Source of the DNA: Desulfobulbaceae bacterium
Lineage (GTDB): Bacteria > Desulfobacterota > Desulfobulbia > Desulfobulbales > SURF-16
NCBI GenBank assembly: GCA_002868945.1
Contig: PKTX01000048.1
Span: 1 to 64,000, forward strand
Length of the DNA stretch: 64,000 nt
Direction of reading: 5' to 3'
Shown here: positions 22,039 through 63,982 of the stretch, one piece after another
Layout of the letters: every line of letters starts with the position of its first letter
Numbering within the stretch: the first letter of the stretch is position 1
Translations under genes and position numbers: made by a program
Notes under the pieces: model-generated
What the model saw: only the letters and a program-made list of their open reading frames with translations
What the model was told of the DNA's origin: nothing
The model's database searches: none

Positions 22039-22752
22039 TCAACCGGGTCGGGAGGGCTCGGCAAAGGGACGTGGCCACATGGGTTGGGTCGGCACACTGA
22101 TCAGTCGCATTTCCGGCAGGATAAGGGCCGTGAGGGATCCGCCATAGACGGCACCGGTATCTATGCCTATCTTGTTGGGCCTGAGCAGCGGTTTTTCAAA
22201 GGGGGTGTGGCCGAAGATCACCGGTTTGCCGAAATTATGGTCGCAGTTGATAAATTCGTCCCTGGCCCATAACAGCCACTGCGGCGACTGGTGACTCAGG
22301 TGTATGCCGGGTTCCAGTCCGGCATGCACGAATATGCCGTGCTCGTTTTCAAAAGTGGCGGGCAGGTCGGAGAGCAGGGCCAGATGGTCGGGCGGAAGAA
22401 GGGCGGCGGCATCACCGGCAAAGGGATCTATGTCATAACTTGTCAGGCACTCCAGGCCGCCGGCCCGCAGGAAAAGGTCACGGTTACGGTCGGCCAGAAA
22501 GTCGAGCAGCATCTGTTCGTGATTGCCGCGCAGAATAATGAGGTGACGCAGCTCTTCCCGCAGTTCAAGCAACAGGGCCACGGTGCCTTTGGAGTCGGGG
22601 CCCCGGTTGATCAGGTCGCCGAGAATGATGACGGTGTCCTGTTCGGCATCCGGGGCTATTTGGGCCAACAGTTCCGCAAGCGCTTGGCGGCAGCCGTGGA
22701 TGTCTCCAATGGCAATGGTTCGACGCATGGTGCGGATCAGCTCTTTTGCCAC
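22039..22752 (-). CDS. Metallophosphoesterase / serine-threonine phosphatase-like protein
   Basis: IAIGDIHGCRQAL, VIILGDLINRGPDSKGT, ILRGNHEQMLLDF: PP2A-like/ApaH-like motifs. Confidence 0.92.
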   Translation of the reverse strand: MAKELIRTMRRTIAIGDIHGCRQALAELLAQIAPDAEQDTVIILGDLINRGPDSKGTVALLLELREELRHLIILRGNHEQMLLDFLADRNRDLFLRAGGLECLTSYDIDPFAGDAAALLPPDHLALLSDLPATFENEHGIFVHAGLEPGIHLSHQSPQWLLWARDEFINCDHNFGKPVIFGHTPFEKPLLRPNKIGIDTGAVYGGSLTALILPEMRLISVPTQPMWPRPFAEPSRPG

Positions 22753-25037
22753 TTTTGCAACAGTATCTCGGCATCCTGACGCTCGGGGAATTCCGCCTCC
22801 ACCGTAAGAGAGCGTTGCAGTTCCTCCCTGGCCAGCTCTTTTTTGCCGCCTGCTTCCAGGGCCAGGGCCAGGTGATATCGGATGGTCGGCGCCTCAGGCA
22901 GGGCGTCCAGGGCCTGGCTGAACTGAGGGATGGCCAGGTCGTAGGCGCCGCGTTGATAATGGATCCAGCCCAGGGTGTCGGCAATATAAGGATCTGTCGG
23001 CGATTGTTCCTTGGCGATGAGGGCCAGGCGCAGGGCTTCGCCGAGATCAGCCTTGTCGCCCTCTATCAGGCGCCAGGCCAGATTGTTGGCGGCCGGCGCA
23101 AAGTCGGGCTGCCGTTGCAGGATTCGCCGGTAGGCGGCCTCAGCCTCGGCATGGCTGCCCTTCTGTTCCTGCAAAATGGCCCAGTGCATGCGGGCCGGTG
23201 CAAGATCGGGTTTTTTGTCAAGCAAGGCGCTGTACTCCTCAATGGCCTCTTGCGTCTTGCCGGTTTGCTCCTGAATTCTGGCAATGAGCAGATATGGCCG
23301 CAGGCGTTCCGGGGCAAGCGCCTGCACCTCGCGTAAGACAGCGATGGCCTGCTCGAAATTTTTCTGCCGTAAGTAAAGTTCCCCCAGTATCGTCAAATAT
23401 TCAGCCTGGTCGGGAACCAGGCGGCGCTGGGCTTCCACCCGGCTGATGGCCCCGGCCGCATCGTTGTGCTGCAGGTAGACAGCCACCAGCGAGGCCACAG
23501 CCGGTGGAAAGTCGGGCTGTATCTCCAATATCTTTTCAAAGAGATCTCTGGCCTGGTCCAGTTCGCGGCGAGCCAGCCTGGTAAGGCCAAGTTGCTGTAA
23601 CACCTCGATATTTTCAGGGGCCCTGGCATTCATCTTCTCAAATACCTGGAGGGCTTCGTCGTATTTTTTGTCATACAAAAAGCAGTTTCCCAGAATAATG
23701 GCAGCCCGAAAGCTGTTTGGCCGCAGACGCAGAGCAATCAATGCTTCGTTGCGGGCGCCGGCCAGGTCGCGCTGCTGGAAGAGGAGTTGGGCAAGCAGGA
23801 TGCGGGAGTGGTGGTCGCGCGGGTTTTGGGTAAGCGCTTCGCTGACCTCTTTCTGGGCCAGCGCTGTTTCACCCCGTTTTTGATGCGCCATTGCCTTTAC
23901 ATAAAAGGGTTCATACCAGCGGGGATAGTTGCGCACCAGGCTGCCGAGGATCTCCAGGGCTTCCTGGTTCTTGCCCTTGCCGACCAGCAGTTTGGCCTGG
24001 AGCAGGTTGCCGCGGCCATGCTTGTTGTTTTCGTCCAGAATCTCCCGAGTCAGGTCAGCGGCCTTGTCGGGCTGTCTTCTGCCGATGTAGAAATCAGCCA
24101 GGGTCGCTTTGGTATCCAGATTGCTTTTGTCCTTTGCCAGTGCCTCCAGGTAGGCGGTTTCCGCCTGGTCAAAGCGGTTGCGTGATTGATAAAATCTGCC
24201 CAGATTAACGGAGAGTTGCGGGTCATTGGGGGCAATGCCGACGGCCTGCTGCAGGGCCTCTTCGGCATGACTGAACTCCTGCCGCCCGGCATGGAAGGCG
24301 GCCAGGTCCAGGTAGGGTTGAGGGGAGTCCGGGAAGGCGTCAATGTTGCGCTGCAGTTGGGCCAGGGCTTTTTGCGGCTCTTGCTGGTTCAGGTAGAAGC
24401 TGACCAGGGCCTGGTTTTTGGCTAGATCGTGGGGCGGCAGGGCAACGGCCTGCAGGAGTGCCTGCTCGGCTGCCGCCGGTTGCTTGTTCGCCATGTAGAC
24501 CTGGGCCTGAAGCAGGTGGAGGCGGGACTGCGTGGGGTCCTGGCTGATCGCCCTGGTGATGATCTCTTCCGCCTGGGCCGGCTTGCCCTCCATCAGGAAG
24601 ATGGTGGCCTTGAGGATCAATGCTTCCATGTTTTGCGGCTCGGCTTCCAGGATGATGTTGACCCGCTCCAGGCTTTGCGATTGCTGGTTTGAGGCGAGCA
24701 TGATCTTGGCAAGGTTGAGCTGGGCCTCCAGGTTGGCCGGATCCACTGAGGCGGCCCGCTCGAAATTGCGATAGGCATTCTGATGATCCTGCAGGGCCAG
24801 TTGGGCCAGACCCATCTGCAGGTATGCCTCGGAGAATTTGCCGTCGATGCTGGTTGCGTTGCGGAATTCCAAGATGGCGGCCTGGTGGTTCTCTTTGGCG
24901 GCGTATTCCATGCCCTTCTGGTAATGGGCCTGTTTTTTGGTCTCAGCATCGCTGCAGGCCACAGTGCTGATCATGAGCAGTGCCAGAATAATGGTGGAAA
25001 AGGCGATGGACAGGTGAGGGAAACGCAAGGGGGTCAT
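22737..25037 (-). CDS. prsT: PrsT-like TPR-repeat lipoprotein of PEP-CTERM systems
   Basis: 766 aa TPR array with lipoprotein signal (ISTVACSDAETKKQAHYQKGMEYAAKENHQAAILEFRNA); adjacent to a PEP-CTERM gene. Confidence 0.8.
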   Translation of the reverse strand: MTPLRFPHLSIAFSTIILALLMISTVACSDAETKKQAHYQKGMEYAAKENHQAAILEFRNATSIDGKFSEAYLQMGLAQLALQDHQNAYRNFERAASVDPANLEAQLNLAKIMLASNQQSQSLERVNIILEAEPQNMEALILKATIFLMEGKPAQAEEIITRAISQDPTQSRLHLLQAQVYMANKQPAAAEQALLQAVALPPHDLAKNQALVSFYLNQQEPQKALAQLQRNIDAFPDSPQPYLDLAAFHAGRQEFSHAEEALQQAVGIAPNDPQLSVNLGRFYQSRNRFDQAETAYLEALAKDKSNLDTKATLADFYIGRRQPDKAADLTREILDENNKHGRGNLLQAKLLVGKGKNQEALEILGSLVRNYPRWYEPFYVKAMAHQKRGETALAQKEVSEALTQNPRDHHSRILLAQLLFQQRDLAGARNEALIALRLRPNSFRAAIILGNCFLYDKKYDEALQVFEKMNARAPENIEVLQQLGLTRLARRELDQARDLFEKILEIQPDFPPAVASLVAVYLQHNDAAGAISRVEAQRRLVPDQAEYLTILGELYLRQKNFEQAIAVLREVQALAPERLRPYLLIARIQEQTGKTQEAIEEYSALLDKKPDLAPARMHWAILQEQKGSHAEAEAAYRRILQRQPDFAPAANNLAWRLIEGDKADLGEALRLALIAKEQSPTDPYIADTLGWIHYQRGAYDLAIPQFSQALDALPEAPTIRYHLALALEAGGKKELAREELQRSLTVEAEFPERQDAEILLQKWQKS

Positions 25038-25373: not shown

Positions 25374-26018
25374 TCAGACTTTGTGCATGCGGCGCCTCAT
25401 TCCGGCCAGTCCGGCCAGCCCGGCTCCGAAGAGCAGGATGGTGGCTGGTTCGGGAATGGGGGTGGTGTTAACGGTAATGTGTGATATGCACGGGACATTC
25501 TTTTCGTTTGGGGTCAGGAGGTGGGCGGTGGTCCAATCGCCGTACTGCAGGGCCGGGTCAACAAAATAGAGGGCAAATTCCGTGGCGCCTTTTATACTGT
25601 AGAAGGAAACCGTATCAGGGGCGTCCACTTGCCATGTCCCTGATTTGTAATCCGCATCATAGCTTATGGTCAAGGAATCAACGGACTCGTCCGGCTCATC
25701 AACCTTGAGGAAGTTATAGCTGGAATCAGTTCCAAGATAATAGTTCAGTAAAGCGGCGAGAATTTCTTCACTGTCGTTGGATTGGTTGGTGACTGTGCCC
25801 AGATAGTAGCCGGTGAAATTGTCGCCGATATATCCGCCGTAGGTGGCATCCCATGTGTCCGTAGCCTGCTTTCTGTTTGTAAAAGTGTACGCAGTGCCGT
25901 CGATGGTGTAGAAGTAATCAGTGTCAAAGGTGGAATCAGTGGTGAGGAATGGCGCGGCCGAGGCCGGGCTGACCTGACAGCAGAGGAGCGCGGCGATTGC
26001 GAGTAGTAATTTGTTCAT
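25374..26018 (-). CDS. PEP-CTERM sorting domain protein
   Basis: MNKLLLAIAALLCCQVSPASAA signal; C-terminus PIPEPATILLFGAGLAGLAGMRRRMHKV (PEP, TM, basic tail); start at 26018 has upstream CCGGAGAAA. Confidence 0.95.
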   Translation of the reverse strand: MNKLLLAIAALLCCQVSPASAAPFLTTDSTFDTDYFYTIDGTAYTFTNRKQATDTWDATYGGYIGDNFTGYYLGTVTNQSNDSEEILAALLNYYLGTDSSYNFLKVDEPDESVDSLTISYDADYKSGTWQVDAPDTVSFYSIKGATEFALYFVDPALQYGDWTTAHLLTPNEKNVPCISHITVNTTPIPEPATILLFGAGLAGLAGMRRRMHKV

Positions 26019-26160
26019 CAGGTTTCTCCGGATTAACATAAACTCAGCATTTTTTTGTTGGACCTGTCTGGAAGATGGTCGGTGCGCACGGCACCAACGG
26101 TCCCCCTATGGACAGATACCAGGTAAATGACAGAGGCGGTTTGCTCAGCATAACTACCTA

Positions 26161-56832: not shown

Positions 56833-57486
56833 TCACGAGTTGCTGTTGTCCAGGTAGTCGATGAAGCGGGGCAGAAAGGCCTGGATGAAGTGGCGGGTCG
56901 CCTCCTGCGCCTGGTCTCTGGTGTTGGTGGTAAAGGGTACGGAGACGCGGATAAAGGCGTGCGATTCGTCCTTGTTGCGGATCTTGTTGTAGGCCATGTC
57001 TATTTTGTTGCGATAGACCTGGGTGCTGCTGCGGTCGTGCGCCTGATACCAGTATGTGACCAGCTCCCGCTGGTCGTTGTAAGAGGTGACGATCTCTTCA
57101 TAGTTGACCACGTATGGCCCGACGTCAAGGGACCTTTTGGCGGGCCTGTTCTCTATCTCCCAGCCCTGGCTGGGATAGCAGACCAGCGGTGAATGGGCGG
57201 CGTATGCCTGGGCAGCGCTGTAGTAAAGCCCGATGTAGAGATTGATCACCTGGTTGTTGCCGCTGTAGTCGGCAAACAGGTAGTCGTCCAGGCGCAACAT
57301 GGCGTAGGCCTCCGGCGCAAGGTCGATCTGCTGTGTGAGCTGATAACCCTCCAGTCGGGTGAAGGAAGCAAGCAGGGGTGGTTTCGGCCCCGGCGCCGAG
57401 TCGGTGCCGAAGCTGTAAGCGATGAGGGCGGTGAGCAGAAGCAGCCCGGCCAGAATCGCCAGTTTCAGTTCTTTTTTGTTTCCCAT
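56833..57486 (-). CDS. EpsI-family protein (exosortase-associated)
   Basis: MGNKKELKLAILAGLLLLTALIAYSFG... LRLDDYLFADYSGNNQVINLYIGLYYSAAQAYAAHSPLVCYPSQGWEIENR; directly follows exosortase with overlap. Confidence 0.9.
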   Translation of the reverse strand: MGNKKELKLAILAGLLLLTALIAYSFGTDSAPGPKPPLLASFTRLEGYQLTQQIDLAPEAYAMLRLDDYLFADYSGNNQVINLYIGLYYSAAQAYAAHSPLVCYPSQGWEIENRPAKRSLDVGPYVVNYEEIVTSYNDQRELVTYWYQAHDRSSTQVYRNKIDMAYNKIRNKDESHAFIRVSVPFTTNTRDQAQEATRHFIQAFLPRFIDYLDNSNS

Positions 57487-58316
57487 GCTTCCAGTCCTTG
57501 CTGCACGATAAAGAGGATGAGCAGGGCCACCAGGAAAACGGCCAGGCCGGTTATGGTATGCAGTGTGCCCTCGGTAAGATCCAGGTTGAAGAAGTGATAG
57601 AGCAATATCATGGTCACCACCCGCACCAGGTTGACCAGGATGGCGGCCGGAATGCTCCAGGCAAAGAGTATGAGTTTGCCGGCAGTGCGCCGCAGCATGA
57701 AGTAGCCCATGATGACACTCAGGGTCATCAGGGTGATGACCGAGCGCAGGCCGCTGCACGCCTCCACCATCTCAAAGCTTTTGCCGGGTATATGCATGAC
57801 ATTGCCCTCCCGGAAGATGGTGACGCCTGCCAGTCGGACAATGACCTCGCTGGCCTGGGACATCATGAGCTGCAGAGGAAAGGTCAGCTGGGTATAGAGT
57901 TGATCCGGTACGGGAATCAGCATGGCAAACAGAATCAGCGGAACGGCCAGCACGTGCAGGGCCTGGATGCCCAGTAGATACGTGGTGATGCCGAGGATGG
58001 CAAGGTACATGGCCAGGGCGATAAGGGTGTGGACCTGGGTAAGCAGGGCAAAGAGATAGAGCAGCGTGGCAAAGAGAAAGAGCAGCAGGCCCGGGGTGGT
58101 ACAGGTGGGCCGGGAATCCAGAAGGGTATGCCGTTTACTCCACACTATGTAGATGATAATGGGAAGCGTCAGAAAGGCATGGTTGTACTCTTCGGAGGCA
58201 GACCATTTTTCAAAGAGAATTCGCCATACCGGTAAGTAGGCCACCGTAAAGAGTGCCAGGGCCATCAGGGCTATTGCCGAGCTTCGACTATGTGTGAAGA
58301 GCACGCGATCAGCCAT
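57465..58316 (-). CDS. Exosortase (XrtA/EpsH family)
   Basis: Polytopic; MVEACSGLRSVITL (Cys), AAILVNLVRVVTM (Arg), TLHTITGLAVF (His) triad motifs. Confidence 0.95.
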   Translation of the reverse strand: MADRVLFTHSRSSAIALMALALFTVAYLPVWRILFEKWSASEEYNHAFLTLPIIIYIVWSKRHTLLDSRPTCTTPGLLLFLFATLLYLFALLTQVHTLIALAMYLAILGITTYLLGIQALHVLAVPLILFAMLIPVPDQLYTQLTFPLQLMMSQASEVIVRLAGVTIFREGNVMHIPGKSFEMVEACSGLRSVITLMTLSVIMGYFMLRRTAGKLILFAWSIPAAILVNLVRVVTMILLYHFFNLDLTEGTLHTITGLAVFLVALLILFIVQQGLEAWETKKN

Positions 58317-58331: not shown

Positions 58332-59747
58332 CTATACCGCGCCTTTGCCGAATAACACGGCAGGGATGGTTTTCAGTAGAATTTTTACATCCAGCCACAG
58401 GGACCACTTTTCAATATACTCCAGATCAAGTTCCAGCCACTTGTGAAAGGGCAGGTCGCTGCGGCCCGATATCTGCCAGAGACAGGTGATGCCCGGTTTG
58501 ACGCTGAAGCGTTTACGCTGGATTCCCCGGTCAAAGAGGTCCACGTCGCGGATGGACATGGGGCGGGGGCCCACCAGACTCATCTCGCCCCGCACCACAT
58601 TAAAGAGCTGCGGCAGTTCATCCAGGCTGGTTTTACGCAGAAAACGCCCCACCCTGGTCACCCGGGGGTCATTGCTGATCTTGAAAATCGGCCCTTCCGC
58701 CTCGTTCAGGTGCTCGATCTCCTTTAATTTTTCCTCTGCATTCTGATGCATGGAGCGAAATTTAAACATGGGAAAGAGATGTTTGCGTAAACCGACCCGC
58801 TGCTGAATAAAAAGTGCCGGACCCGGAGAGTCGAGCCTGATGGCCAGGGCCACCACCGCCATCAGGGGCAGAAGTACAGGCATAGCCAAAAGGGTCAGGG
58901 ACAGGTCAAAGAGGCGCTTGGCGAACAGGCGGCCTTCATCATGGGCCACCGGTTCCATGGTCAGCAGAGGGATGTGGCCGACATGGTCCAGGCTGATGCG
59001 GGCAACATGGACGTTGAACAGATCAGCCATGAAGCGTAGTTTGACGCCCTCCTCCTCACAGGCGTGGGCAATGGGGTCTGCGTCTTCCAGGAGGGAGCGG
59101 GGAATGGCGATGATCACCTCGTCCACCACGTTGTTCTTCAAGCATTCGTTTATGTTGTGAACCGTGCCGAGCACGGGTGCTCCATCAATCGTGTCGCCCA
59201 CCCGCTGGGGGTCAGGGTCCAGGTGACCGACAATTTCAATGCCCCACTCTGCTTGCACCTTCAGGGAACGGGCTGCTTCCCTGGCGCGTTCACCGGTGCC
59301 GATGATCAGGATGCGCAGAAAGGCGGCACCGTCTTGGATGGAGTGTAAAAAGTATTGCTTGCCCCAGACCCGAATCAACAGGAGGGCAAAGAACTGCAGG
59401 GTGGCAAAAAGCAGGATAACCACCCGGCTGACATATTGAATCTCCAGAAAGAAGATCAGGGCAAGAAGGACGCCGATGGTCAGGGCCATGCCCCGGAAAA
59501 CCGCCCAGGCATAGCTGAGCAGAGTGGCATATCTGGGGCTGCGATAGCCGCCGAAATAGGAGAGAAAGAGAGTCAGCAGGGTAATGAGCAGCGGCAGGAG
59601 AAAGAGGTGCGAATAGATATCAAGTATTCCCTCGCCCAGTAGAAAAAAGTTCCTGAGCCAGAATGAGGCAAGAAAGGTGGCTATGGTGCTGGTGATATCC
59701 AAGAAAAAAATAGTCCGATGCAGCTCTTTACTGCGTGAATCATACAT
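58332..59747 (-). CDS. Undecaprenyl-phosphate glycosylphosphotransferase (priming glycosyltransferase)
   Basis: N-terminal TMs, CoA-binding-like region, C-terminal [43 protein letters not shown]...[14 protein letters not shown]...[26 protein letters not shown]. Confidence 0.96.
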
Positions 59748-60099: not shown

Positions 60100-60134
60100 T
60101 AAACAGCTCTTTCCGGAAAAACGGAAAGGATACC

Positions 60135-60857
60135 TTAGATTTGCTTACGGCGGCGGGCAACCCCGGCCAGACCGGCAAGACCGGCGCCAAAGAGCAGCAT
60201 GGTGGCCGGCTCGGGAATGGGGTCCGTGCCGATGACATCATTGGCACAATATGGGGCGTAGGCGATCATATAGTTGGTACCCAGAGCAATTTTAGCCAGT
60301 GAAAAATTCTTGTAAAGATAGCTGAAGTCGTAGGTTAATTGGGTGCCGTCATATGAGATAAAACTACCGCTTGTTCCAGTATAGAGATCGGCGACCAGGT
60401 AATCATCGTTAATGGCATTGGGATGGCCTGTGCGTTGGTCAGTTGCAGTGACTAAGTTATAGAAATCCGAATTGTCGGAGGCAGAGGCATCCACCGAGAA
60501 CAGGGTGCTTGTGTTATTCTCCGTGTCGTCAGATGCCATGTAGTCCCATTCATCGTAGGTCGCCCAGTCCAGATCCCAGTCCGTGTTGATGAACAGATTG
60601 TCCGGATCAAGACGATTGGTCATGTTGATAACCACGGTATGGAGGGCACGGTTGTCTGCGGCATCATAGGTGACATGAATACTGTCAATTTGAGGGTTGC
60701 CTACTTCATCATCGGGGTAATATTTCGTATCCTCCCATCCTGGAAAGGTTACCCAGTAATCTGAGTAAGATTCGGTGATGAGGGCTGCTGTGGCCGGGGT
60801 GGATGCCAGGCCGCAGAGCAGTGCTGCGCAGGCGAATGCGGTGGTTGTCTTTTTCAT
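60135..60857 (-). CDS. PEP-CTERM sorting domain protein
   Basis: Signal MKKTTTAFACAALLCGLASTPATAA; C-terminus DPIPEPATMLLFGAGLAGLAGVARRRKQI. Confidence 0.96.
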   Translation of the reverse strand: MKKTTTAFACAALLCGLASTPATAALITESYSDYWVTFPGWEDTKYYPDDEVGNPQIDSIHVTYDAADNRALHTVVINMTNRLDPDNLFINTDWDLDWATYDEWDYMASDDTENNTSTLFSVDASASDNSDFYNLVTATDQRTGHPNAINDDYLVADLYTGTSGSFISYDGTQLTYDFSYLYKNFSLAKIALGTNYMIAYAPYCANDVIGTDPIPEPATMLLFGAGLAGLAGVARRRKQI

Positions 60858-60958
60858 GATTTTTCCTCTCTCGTGGTTTTCTTGGCAACTGGTTGACTAG
60901 TGCCTGTCCGGATGTGGCCATTCCGAAAAGACACTTGTTGGCCTTTTTATCTATTTCG

Positions 60959-60974
60959 CCCACCCTATGGTGGG
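60959..60974 (-). promoter_or_regulatory. Leader hairpin CCCACC-ATAG-GGTGGG
   Basis: Perfect 6-bp stem with 4-nt loop in the putative 5' leader of the PEP-CTERM gene. Confidence 0.55.
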
Positions 60975-61006
60975 TAAAGCTATCAGTAACTCCAGCCTAA
61001 GGATAT

Positions 61007-61021
61007 GCAACCGGTGTGCCA
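61007..61021 (-). promoter_or_regulatory. Sigma-54 promoter TGGCAC-ACCGG-TTGC
   Basis: Exact match to TGGCAC-N5-TTGC, ~150-164 nt upstream of the PEP-CTERM start codon. Confidence 0.85.
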
Positions 61022-61254
61022 AACACCTTCTTTTTGTTAATATGCCGGAATTACAGCAGAAAGCCTGAGGAGGGGGTGTTGTTGGTGTTCCCGGGCGCAA
61101 GGCGGTTTCCGGGAAACTGAACTGGTCGAAATAAAATCTTATGATATCGAGAGGTTGCTTGCTGTTCTGGATTTCGGAAATGGGGACTCGGAGAATGGTT
61201 TGCGCTACTGCTTCTAAGGGACTTCAGCTAACTATCTGAGTTGAGATAATTTGA

Positions 61255-61810
61255 TGTTAAAGAATGTTAAAAGAAGTTAGAGGGAGTTATGGGGAGTTAT
61301 GGGAAGTTATAGGGAGTTATGCGGAGTTATGGGGGGCGTGTGATGCTGCGATAATTCAGGAGTCAGGAGTCAGGAGAAAAAAGAAAAGCTTAAAGAGCAG
61401 TCATTCCAGCATCTTTAATTCCGGTCCTGAATTCAGGAAGTCCTCCTTGCCGCTTGAACCTTGCCCCTCCCTCTGTCACTGCGAGGACCGGAGGGACGCG
61501 GCAGTCCAGGGGGCATGGCGCGGCATCGAGGCAGGACAACCTCTCTGGATTGCTTCGCGTTGCTCGCAATGACACCACCTCACACCTCTCACCTCACTCT
61601 TCACTCTTCACCCTTGCCCCTTGCACCTTGTATCTTGCCCCTCCCTCTGTCACTGCGAGGAGCGGAGGGACGCGGCAGTCCAGGAGACATGGCGAGGCGC
61701 GGCAACAGCGCAACCTCTCTGGATTGCTTGGCGTTGCTCGCAATGACGCCACCTCTCTCCTCACTCCTCACTCCTCACTCTTCACTCTTCACTCTTCACC
61801 CTTGAACATC
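61255..61810 (+). repeat. Composite repeat cassette with six 10-bp tandem units (61271-61330) and two hairpin repeats (61475-61573, 61649-61747)
   Basis: Direct reading; RGGRAGTTAT units and GTCACTGCGAGG(A)..CCGGAGGGACGCGGCAGTCCAGG repeats. Confidence 0.9.
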
Positions 61811-61864: not shown

Positions 61865-62404
61865 TCAGCTCGGGGGCAGGTATTCCTGCAAGGGCAGGCT
61901 GTTGGCCGCATCGGTGAAGCGGAGTCCGTACTGTTGGAAACCGGCATGGCCGGCCGGCCGGCGCCAGCGTATTTCGGCCGTGCCGGTGCAATCAAGGAAA
62001 GGGGAACCCTGTGCAAAGGTAAAGGTTATTCGGCTGTTCTGGGGCAGGGCGCAGGCGGTTTCAATGCGCATGCCGCCCGCACTCAGGTCAATGGTCCTGG
62101 CCCGCGCTTCCCGACGTTGATTGTCAAGGGCGGCAGCAACCAGAAAGAGCTGGTGATGTCTGGAAAAACGCCGGTGGCGGCGGCGCCCCTCTTTGTCAAC
62201 GTGCTGCGTGCTCCGTTGGAATGGCCGCAGGGGATCACCTTGGCTGACATAACGGGGACAGAGTCGCCAGCTGCTGGTGTCACAGAAGCGGAGGATATGT
62301 TCAGGGAGCGGCAGGTAAAGACCTCGACTGGTGAGTGAACATGCCTGGTTGCAGGTCGGTAGCCAGAAGGGACAGTGGGTTTGACAAGATCTGCCTTTGA
62401 TCAT
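61865..62404 (-). CDS. PilZ domain protein
   Basis: NQRREARARTIDLSAGGMRIETACALPQNSRITFTFAQG: PilZ D/N-x-S-x-x-G pattern. Confidence 0.75.
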   Translation of the reverse strand: MIKGRSCQTHCPFWLPTCNQACSLTSRGLYLPLPEHILRFCDTSSWRLCPRYVSQGDPLRPFQRSTQHVDKEGRRRHRRFSRHHQLFLVAAALDNQRREARARTIDLSAGGMRIETACALPQNSRITFTFAQGSPFLDCTGTAEIRWRRPAGHAGFQQYGLRFTDAANSLPLQEYLPPS

Positions 62405-62488: not shown

Positions 62489-63982
62489 TTATTTTTTTCC
62501 GGCAGAAAGGCCGTGACGTTTCATCTTTTCATAAAAGGTGGTTTTGCTCATTCCCAGAACCCGGGAAATTACCTGGGGGTTGCCGCCGAACTTGTCCAGG
62601 GCCGAGGCAATGATTTTACCCTCAAGTTCAGCCACTGATTCCTTGAGCGGCTGCTCCAGAAGTCTTTTTTCCAGAAGTCCGCTGGGCTGGTTGTGGCCGG
62701 CGCAGGCAATAGTGTTTTCGAGGCAGAGTTCCTTTTCCGTAATAACATTACTTTTGGCCAGCAGGACCGCCCGTTTAATGACGTTTTCAAGCTCCCGGAT
62801 GTTTCCGGGCCAGTCGTGGTTGAGAAGGCGGTCGAGAATGCGGTTGGGGATGTAGTCGATTTCTTTCTGAAATGCGGCTCGATATTTTTTAATAAAATGG
62901 GTGATGAGCGGCACGATATCCTCCTTGCGTTGCCGCAGGGGGGGAAGGTGGATGTTGATGACATTGAGCCGGTAATAGAGGTCGCGTCTGAAGTTGTTTT
63001 CTTCCACGGCAGTGGAGAGGTCCACATTTGTGGAGGTGATCACCCGTACGTTAACATGCACTGACTGGTTGCCGCCGACCCGCATGATTTCACCGTTCTG
63101 GAGCACCCGCAGCAAGGCTGCCTGCATGCGGGGGCTGATGTCGCCGATTTCGTCGAGAAAGATGGTGCCTTTGTCGGCAATTTCAAATTTGCCCATTCTG
63201 CGGGCGTTGGCGCCGGTGAAAGAGCCCTTTTCATAACCGAAGAGATCACTTTCCAGCAGCGTTTCGGATACGGCGGCACAGTTGAATTTGAGGAATGGAT
63301 TGTCGTGGCGTTGGCTGCGTCTGTGGATGGTGTCGGCCACCAGTTCCTTGCCTGTCCCTGATTCGCCGGTGATGAGGATGGTTGCATCGGAATCGGCAAC
63401 GTGGTTGATCATCTCCCGCAGTTCCCGGAACTGGCGGGATTGACCGACCATCTCATCCTGCGGGCTGCTGTGGATATCAAGGGTTTGTTTGAGGATGTTG
63501 ACCTCGCGGTTGAGTTCCAGGCGCACCCGCTCGCTTTCCCGGAGTTCCTGAATCTTTTGTTGGAGGAGGGAGTCAATATCGTTATGTATCTTGGCCAGTT
63601 CCGCCTCCTGTTTTTTGCGCTGGGTAATGTCGCGCATGACCAGCATGACCAGTTGCTCATCCCGGTAGCCGTGAAAGGAGATGAAGTTGTATTCCACATC
63701 TACCTTACCGATCCGGCGTTCAAAAAGGCCTTTTGCCTTTGCGCCGGTCAGAGAGAGTTGCACCGGGCAATCTCGGCAGGACTGCTCGCCGCACTTGAGG
63801 GCCTCGCGGCAGGCCATACCTTGCAGGTCGCCGAAGATGGTGCTGGCTGCCGGATTCATATATTCGATGATATAGTCGCTGCGAATCAGGAGGATCATGT
63901 CCAGCATGATATCCAGCAGGGCGACGCGATTCTTGCTGAGCCGTTGGACCTCCTTGCGGGCCCGGCTCAGTTCCGTGTGCAT
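62489..63982 (-). CDS. PAS-containing sigma-54-dependent transcriptional activator (possibly continues beyond window end)
   Basis: PAS with Cys cluster (CREALKCGEQSCRDCPVQL), AAA+ (LITGESGTGKELVADTIHRRS, GANARRMGKFEIADKGTIFLDEIGD), Fis HTH (NPQVISRVLGMSKTTFYEKMKRHGL); upstream codons to 64000 are open. Confidence 0.95.
   Translation of the reverse strand: MHTELSRARKEVQRLSKNRVALLDIMLDMILLIRSDYIIEYMNPAASTIFGDLQGMACREALKCGEQSCRDCPVQLSLTGAKAKGLFERRIGKVDVEYNFISFHGYRDEQLVMLVMRDITQRKKQEAELAKIHNDIDSLLQQKIQELRESERVRLELNREVNILKQTLDIHSSPQDEMVGQSRQFRELREMINHVADSDATILITGESGTGKELVADTIHRRSQRHDNPFLKFNCAAVSETLLESDLFGYEKGSFTGANARRMGKFEIADKGTIFLDEIGDISPRMQAALLRVLQNGEIMRVGGNQSVHVNVRVITSTNVDLSTAVEENNFRRDLYYRLNVINIHLPPLRQRKEDIVPLITHFIKKYRAAFQKEIDYIPNRILDRLLNHDWPGNIRELENVIKRAVLLAKSNVITEKELCLENTIACAGHNQPSGLLEKRLLEQPLKESVAELEGKIIASALDKFGGNPQVISRVLGMSKTTFYEKMKRHGLSAGKK

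Follow-up and report, generated by a model that had tools for sequence, protein, structure and literature searches.

The sigma-54 promoter that precedes a PEP-CTERM gene near the end of the 64,000-nt stretch of Desulfobulbaceae DNA analysed here (the window) probably belongs to an exosortase system and is driven by a neighbouring PAS-AAA+-Fis activator, which would act through an upstream palindrome, TTCCGGAA, present at this gene as TTTCCCGGAAA. Input of c-di-GMP may come through a PilZ protein encoded next to the activator, and the leader of the gene appears to play no conserved role. The computed evidence behind this model comprises the match to the promoter consensus, the enrichment and spacing of the palindrome, the conserved gene neighbourhood, the lack of any PrsR above cut-off in the source genome, and the MITE origin of a sequence block in the leader.

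Predicted sigma-54 promoters precede both PEP-CTERM genes

The window contains two PEP-CTERM genes on the minus strand: gene 1 (25374-26018; 214 aa), which matches PF07589 with 29 bits, and gene 2 (60135-60857; 240 aa), which does so with 31.3 bits (cut-off 20.7). A search with one protein recovers the other over the C-terminal 37 residues only, in agreement with the preliminary description of this DNA, according to which the two differ outside their ends. The same strand encodes an exosortase of the EpsH family that is closest to the XrtA model (57465-58316; TIGR02602, 178.9 bits, cut-off 105.6), an EPS sugar transferase (58332-59747; TIGR03025, above cut-off) and a PrsT-type TPR protein (22737-25037; TIGR02917, 360.9 bits, cut-off 312.2).

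The exact -24/-12 element reported in the preliminary description was confirmed: TGGCAC-ACCGG-TTGC at 61021-61007 (minus strand; TGGCACACCGGTTGC) is the sole zero-mismatch match in a scan of the window. The GC of its -12 element lies 149 nt from the ATG of PEP-CTERM gene 2 (60857), which agrees with Haft motif 2, a GG-N10-GC element located 23-221 nt before the start codon. Across the source genome we counted 26 exact -24/-12 strings, compared with 3 for a control in which the pattern was read backwards. PEP-CTERM gene 1 also has its own -24/-12-like site, CGGCATACTCCTTGC, which a pattern scan placed at 26175-26161 (minus strand) and which is absent from the preliminary description.

The generality of this arrangement was assessed in 78 PEP-CTERM genes whose upstream DNA could be read, drawn from genomes of the SURF-16 family. 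A sigma-54 score of 16 or higher no more than 250 nt from the start (the score weights being our own and the start codons chosen automatically) was found for 79.5% of these genes and for 5.3% of mononucleotide shuffles. Because most PEP-CTERM genes of related genomes have the same arrangement, the assignment of a sigma-54 promoter to both window genes is supported. Such promoters have been known at PEP-CTERM genes since 2006 (PMC1569441): proteobacterial PEP-CTERM genes were described as having a -24/-12 motif and an upstream motif ending in TTTACA, and these motifs match PrsK, PrsR and PrsT in phylogenetic profile (Haft et al. 2006, PMC1569441). The pepA promoter mapped in Aquincola is RpoN-dependent (PMC9850573). 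Judged by its sequence, the promoter before PEP-CTERM gene 2 is a known kind of sigma-54 switch and is predicted to be active.

A palindrome is enriched upstream of the promoters

We searched for enhancer motifs in the 200 nt before the promoter of the 61 family genes with a good promoter. The palindrome TTCCGGAA, allowing at most one mismatch, occurs at 47 of these 61 genes, compared with 5.7 expected, and TTTCCGG (37 versus 2.0) and TTCCGGA (28 versus 1.2) are among the most enriched 7-mers. The palindrome is mostly positioned 90-130 nt, and up to about 170 nt, before the -24 element. The candidate enhancer (UAS) of PEP-CTERM gene 2, TTTCCCGGAAA, is located at 61106-61116 (minus strand), centred about 89 nt before the -24 element. 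The closest ortholog of this gene found outside the genus (in genome G213; 46% over 254 aa) has kept both the promoter and TTTCCCGGAAA at a similar distance. At PEP-CTERM gene 1 we identified a candidate pair on the minus strand, TTTTCCGGAAAAA (26413-26401) and TTCCGGGAAT (26390-26381), which lie about 230 and 210 nt before the promoter; the palindrome at about 230 nt is farther away than usual, which counts against the explanation we favour. Overall, the part of the region that appears to be conserved is the enhancer-like upstream palindrome, not the leader.

The exact string TTTCCGGAAA was rejected as a genome-wide sigma-54 enhancer: many of its 11 sites lie inside long ORFs, and the site at PEP-CTERM gene 1 is the only clearly intergenic one with a convincing, correctly oriented sigma-54 site. 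A perfect TTTCCGGAAA at 60110-60119 lies just beyond the PEP-CTERM gene 2 stop codon and before the sugar transferase and exosortase genes. It was dropped as an enhancer of the EPS/exosortase operon, given that no promoter above background and no good sigma-54 site is found downstream of it.

A PAS-type activator and a PilZ protein adjoin PEP-CTERM gene 2

The candidate regulator is a sigma-54 activator of PAS-AAA+-Fis architecture encoded at 62489-63982 (minus strand; Sigma54_activat E 4e-71, HTH_8 1.7e-7, weak PAS), in which the domain search reported no receiver domain. It combines a sigma-54 interaction domain that has a GAFTGA-type loop, here GSFTGA, with a Fis HTH, as expected of an enhancer-binding protein (EBP). 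The middle gene of the triad, at 61865-62404 (minus strand; start codon as in the ORF list), encodes a PilZ-domain protein (PF07238, E 1.9e-12). Its sequence contains the c-di-GMP signature RxxxR plus [D/N]xSxxG (as RxxxR...DxSxxG), which is kept in 36 of the 41 PilZ proteins examined. The DNA that separates PEP-CTERM gene 2 from the PilZ gene includes dispersed-repeat-like sequence of the CATTGCGAGCAACGCGAAGCAATCC type, seemingly repeated (61454-61780), and, upstream of PEP-CTERM gene 2, a series of degenerate tandem repeats resembling ATAACTCCC (61260-61345).

One strong match to the activator per genome was found in 17 of 22 family genomes, while the match in G011 (46%) lacks the neighbours; within the class, 114 of 263 genomes have one strong match. 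The order activator, PilZ gene, PEP-CTERM gene is present in all 11 family genomes with enough contig, the last gene being inverted in two of them. Of 40 loci sampled outside the family, most have the PilZ gene next to the activator, and in about ten a PEP-CTERM gene comes next. At many of these outside loci no PEP-CTERM gene lies within 8 kb, and PilZ is missing from some, so the activator may govern something broader, for example EPS genes. In the literature searched, which excludes most subscription journals, we found no earlier description of the activator-PilZ-PEP-CTERM triad. With its counterparts in G213, G214 and G216, three genomes from a different family within the order, the activator shares 68-70% identity, compared with 53-57% for those of its own family, and PEP-CTERM gene 2 is likewise closest to G213. 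Since both proteins are closest to those of another family, the activator-PilZ-PEP-CTERM gene 2 locus may have been acquired horizontally.

In the mechanism that we propose, the element at 61021-61007 would serve as a sigma-54 promoter of the exosortase (PEP-CTERM/EPS) system, with transcription of PEP-CTERM gene 2 starting just downstream of 61007 and depending on an AAA+ activator bound upstream. This role would fall not to PrsR but to the PAS-AAA+-Fis protein whose gene (62489-63982) lies two genes away. Perhaps gated by c-di-GMP through PilZ, this protein would bind TTCCGGAA/TTTCCCGGAAA, some 90 nt before the -24 element, and reach the polymerase by DNA looping, and the PilZ protein encoded between the activator and the PEP-CTERM gene would probably render the output c-di-GMP-dependent. 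Promoter activity, binding of the activator to the palindrome and the role of PilZ are the steps of this scheme that we infer.

The palindrome and the activator tend to occur together: TTCCGGAA is present in 41 of 50 promoters of activator-positive genomes versus 4 of 11 elsewhere (Fisher p 0.0045, a test that is not independent per gene because the genomes are related). Three of the four exceptions come from the fragmented genome G010, in which no activator ortholog was detected above threshold. These promoters, together with the wide distribution of the activator at loci with no PEP-CTERM gene nearby, are what one would expect if TTCCGGAA were the site of another regulator, be it a repressor or a different EBP, and the neighbouring activator controlled different genes. 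We consider that assignment unlikely in view of the conserved triad, the co-occurrence of palindrome and activator, and the enhancer-like spacing of the palindrome.

The palindrome differs from the PrsR motif

The upstream motif published for PEP-CTERM genes (Haft motif 1) is 17 nt long, ends in TTTACA and has a mean spacing of 62.8 nt (Haft et al. 2006, PMC1569441). TGTCG followed by a T-rich stretch that ends in TTTACA occurs 62-64 nt before the promoter of five genes (in G007, G008, G013, G018 and G021), a pattern that fits Haft motif 1 as described in the text of that paper. All five lack TTCCGGAA, and four of the five belong to genomes in which a PrsR exceeds the cut-off. In the source genome, by comparison, no protein does (TIGR02915; best 427 bits versus 502.6), and at neither window gene is a motif ending in TTTACA found about 63 nt before the promoter, where a PrsR site would be expected. 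On these grounds, two classes of enhancer seem to coexist within one bacterial family, and the TTCCGGAA palindrome differs from the published PrsR motif.

The same observations bear on whether a PrsK/PrsR-type system drives the promoter by way of a divergent PrsR encoded elsewhere in the genome. The source genome does encode many NtrC-type response regulators, including the one that scores 427 bits, and PrsT is present. Nevertheless, we regard this explanation as quite unlikely, in that no regulator reaches 502.6 bits, the window lacks the TTTACA motif at the appropriate distance, and the genes that have this motif lack TTCCGGAA.

The leader contains a MITE relic and a private hairpin

In the preliminary description, the leader of PEP-CTERM gene 2 was held to match that of PEP-CTERM gene 1. 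Its components are present as written. The hairpin CCCACC-ATAG-GGTGGG (60974-60959, minus strand) folds well by itself (z -3.4) and less clearly when the full leader is folded (z -2.5); the GACAGG block, GGCCACATCCGGACAGG at 60919-60903, lies 45 nt from the ATG, nearly the same distance as that of GACCATCTTCCAGACAGG (26080-26063) from the ATG of PEP-CTERM gene 1 (26018), 44 nt. The octamer CCATAGGG, proposed as the shared core of both leaders, was dropped; it occurs at chance level, 2 times in the window versus 2.5 expected.

The GACAGG block corresponds to the terminus of a mobile repeat. A search of the source genome with the leader returned about two dozen partial copies, all of exactly the GACAGG segment. 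When read out, each proved to be the right-hand end of an element of 141-318 bp that is bounded by terminal inverted repeats (TIRs) GTGTCTGTCCAGAAATAGGTC ... GGCCATTTCCGGACAGGCAC and 6-bp target duplications, the latter matching in nearly all of the 13 elements read. TIR-like sites number 164 in the source genome, compared with 0 for a reversed control pattern. Members of this MITE family (e.g. L104-L123 and L154-L183; 141-318 bp, TIR GTGTCTGTCCAGAAATAGGTC) are internally mosaic, and no full-length transposon was found between TIR pairs in 30 loci of about 3 kb each, a span that might not have captured a larger one. The genome also has, at other sites, minimal TIR-TIR palindromes of 37 bp, one of them read with its duplication. 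At locus L005 (G000:C25:103722-103819), a perfect TGGCAC-N5-TTGC is followed 46 nt downstream by an intact palindrome of this type (37 bp) with TAGTTA duplications.

Within the leader, the block is part of a diverged 35-nt palindrome of the TIR-TIR type, GTGTCTTTTCGGAATGGCCACATCCGGACAGGCAC (60934-60900, minus strand), whose ends match the family TIR. The right arm agrees with the TIR at 18 of 20 positions (22 of 24 with flank), and none of 2000 shuffles did as well; the left arm is a weak match (15 of 2000 shuffles). Most other copies have a target-site duplication, whereas this one has none (CAACAA versus TAGTCA). What had been read as a leader element is the right TIR of a dispersed MITE family, left as a relic. 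The leader hairpin of PEP-CTERM gene 1 (26050-26125, minus strand; z -4.0) resembles the TIR weakly (right arm 2 of 2000 shuffles, left arm 50 of 2000), and no further copies of it were found in 359 kb of DNA from the source genome. It is possibly a degenerate TIR relic, and apart from this the likeness between the two window leaders is weak.

In other genomes, the leaders beside the same activator measure 60-139 nt in well-parsed cases (the start in G021 is doubtful) and precede genes for orthologous or related PEP-CTERM proteins (27-50% identity, pairs aligned full-length). Both the CCCACC hairpin and the GACAGG block are absent from these leaders in about ten genomes, G001 and G213 included, so that neither conservation nor covariation was observed; a lack of conservation in orthologous leaders was the refuter that the preliminary description had set beforehand. 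An Rfam scan of the window likewise gave zero matches at gathering thresholds. A regulatory leader common to both genes is not supported. The CCCACC hairpin is private to PEP-CTERM gene 2, and the leader of this gene would have no conserved role. Half of the original finding is thereby ordinary, a known promoter type, and the other half is explained away by a MITE relic and a private hairpin. The case illustrates that a mobile palindrome may be mistaken for a conserved leader.

The hairpin derived from the MITE could have been recruited to a leader role after insertion, a possibility compatible with the promoter model. The stem has been kept (z -3.6), some changes in the left arm preserve pairing via G-U, and a second possible relic lies in the leader at 26 kb. 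We judge recruitment to be very unlikely, however: the palindrome was not found in relatives, its left arm has decayed, and with so many TIR-like sites in the genome, the presence of one close to a promoter calls for no particular explanation. A structured RNA common to both leaders, made up of hairpin and GACAGG block and regulating translation or stability, can draw on hairpin parts that fold better than shuffles in both leaders and on blocks equally far from the start codon, but is highly improbable given the absence of both elements from related leaders, the lack of an Rfam match and the MITE origin of the block.

Implications and comparison with known systems

In the activated-sludge bacteria studied so far, PEP-CTERM proteins are needed for holding exopolysaccharide in flocs, and the control circuit in the literature searched is PrsK/PrsR with sigma-54. 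Further regulators and DNA motifs were expected by Haft et al. 2006 (PMC1569441). The window points to one such regulator, with a candidate activator, a DNA site and a possible link to c-di-GMP. The surroundings of PEP-CTERM gene 2 probably represent a new variant of PEP-CTERM regulation, and the activator-PilZ pair together with TTCCGGAA looks like an apparently undescribed control of biofilm-matrix proteins. As a more tentative proposal, which might or might not hold, a second, PrsR-independent control of exosortase cargo may operate order-wide, with a PAS-type activator and a c-di-GMP-binding PilZ protein turning on PEP-CTERM genes via TTCCGGAA and at times occurring alongside PrsR in a genome, with the PEP-CTERM genes split between the two.

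The repeats resemble bacterial MITEs in being short (141-318 bp) and having TIRs, 6-bp target duplications and many copies, whereas the copy in the leader is a 35-nt TIR-TIR palindrome only and lacks the target duplication. The activator has the PAS-AAA+ (GSFTGA)-Fis architecture of NtrC-family enhancer-binding proteins with a PAS sensor, but it scores below every curated NCBIfam equivalog cut-off among the 25 matches listed (363 bits against the NifA model, for which the cut-off is 529). The closest parallel in arrangement is the PrsK/PrsR PEP-CTERM system (PMC1569441, PMC9850573), which likewise combines -24/-12 promoters of individual PEP-CTERM genes with an activator site upstream and with PrsT. 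In contrast to that system, no PrsR above cut-off is found here, the candidate activator has a PAS instead of a receiver domain, and a PilZ gene adjoins; the upstream site there is a motif ending in TTTACA at about 63 nt, and here it is TTCCGGAA at about 90-170 nt.
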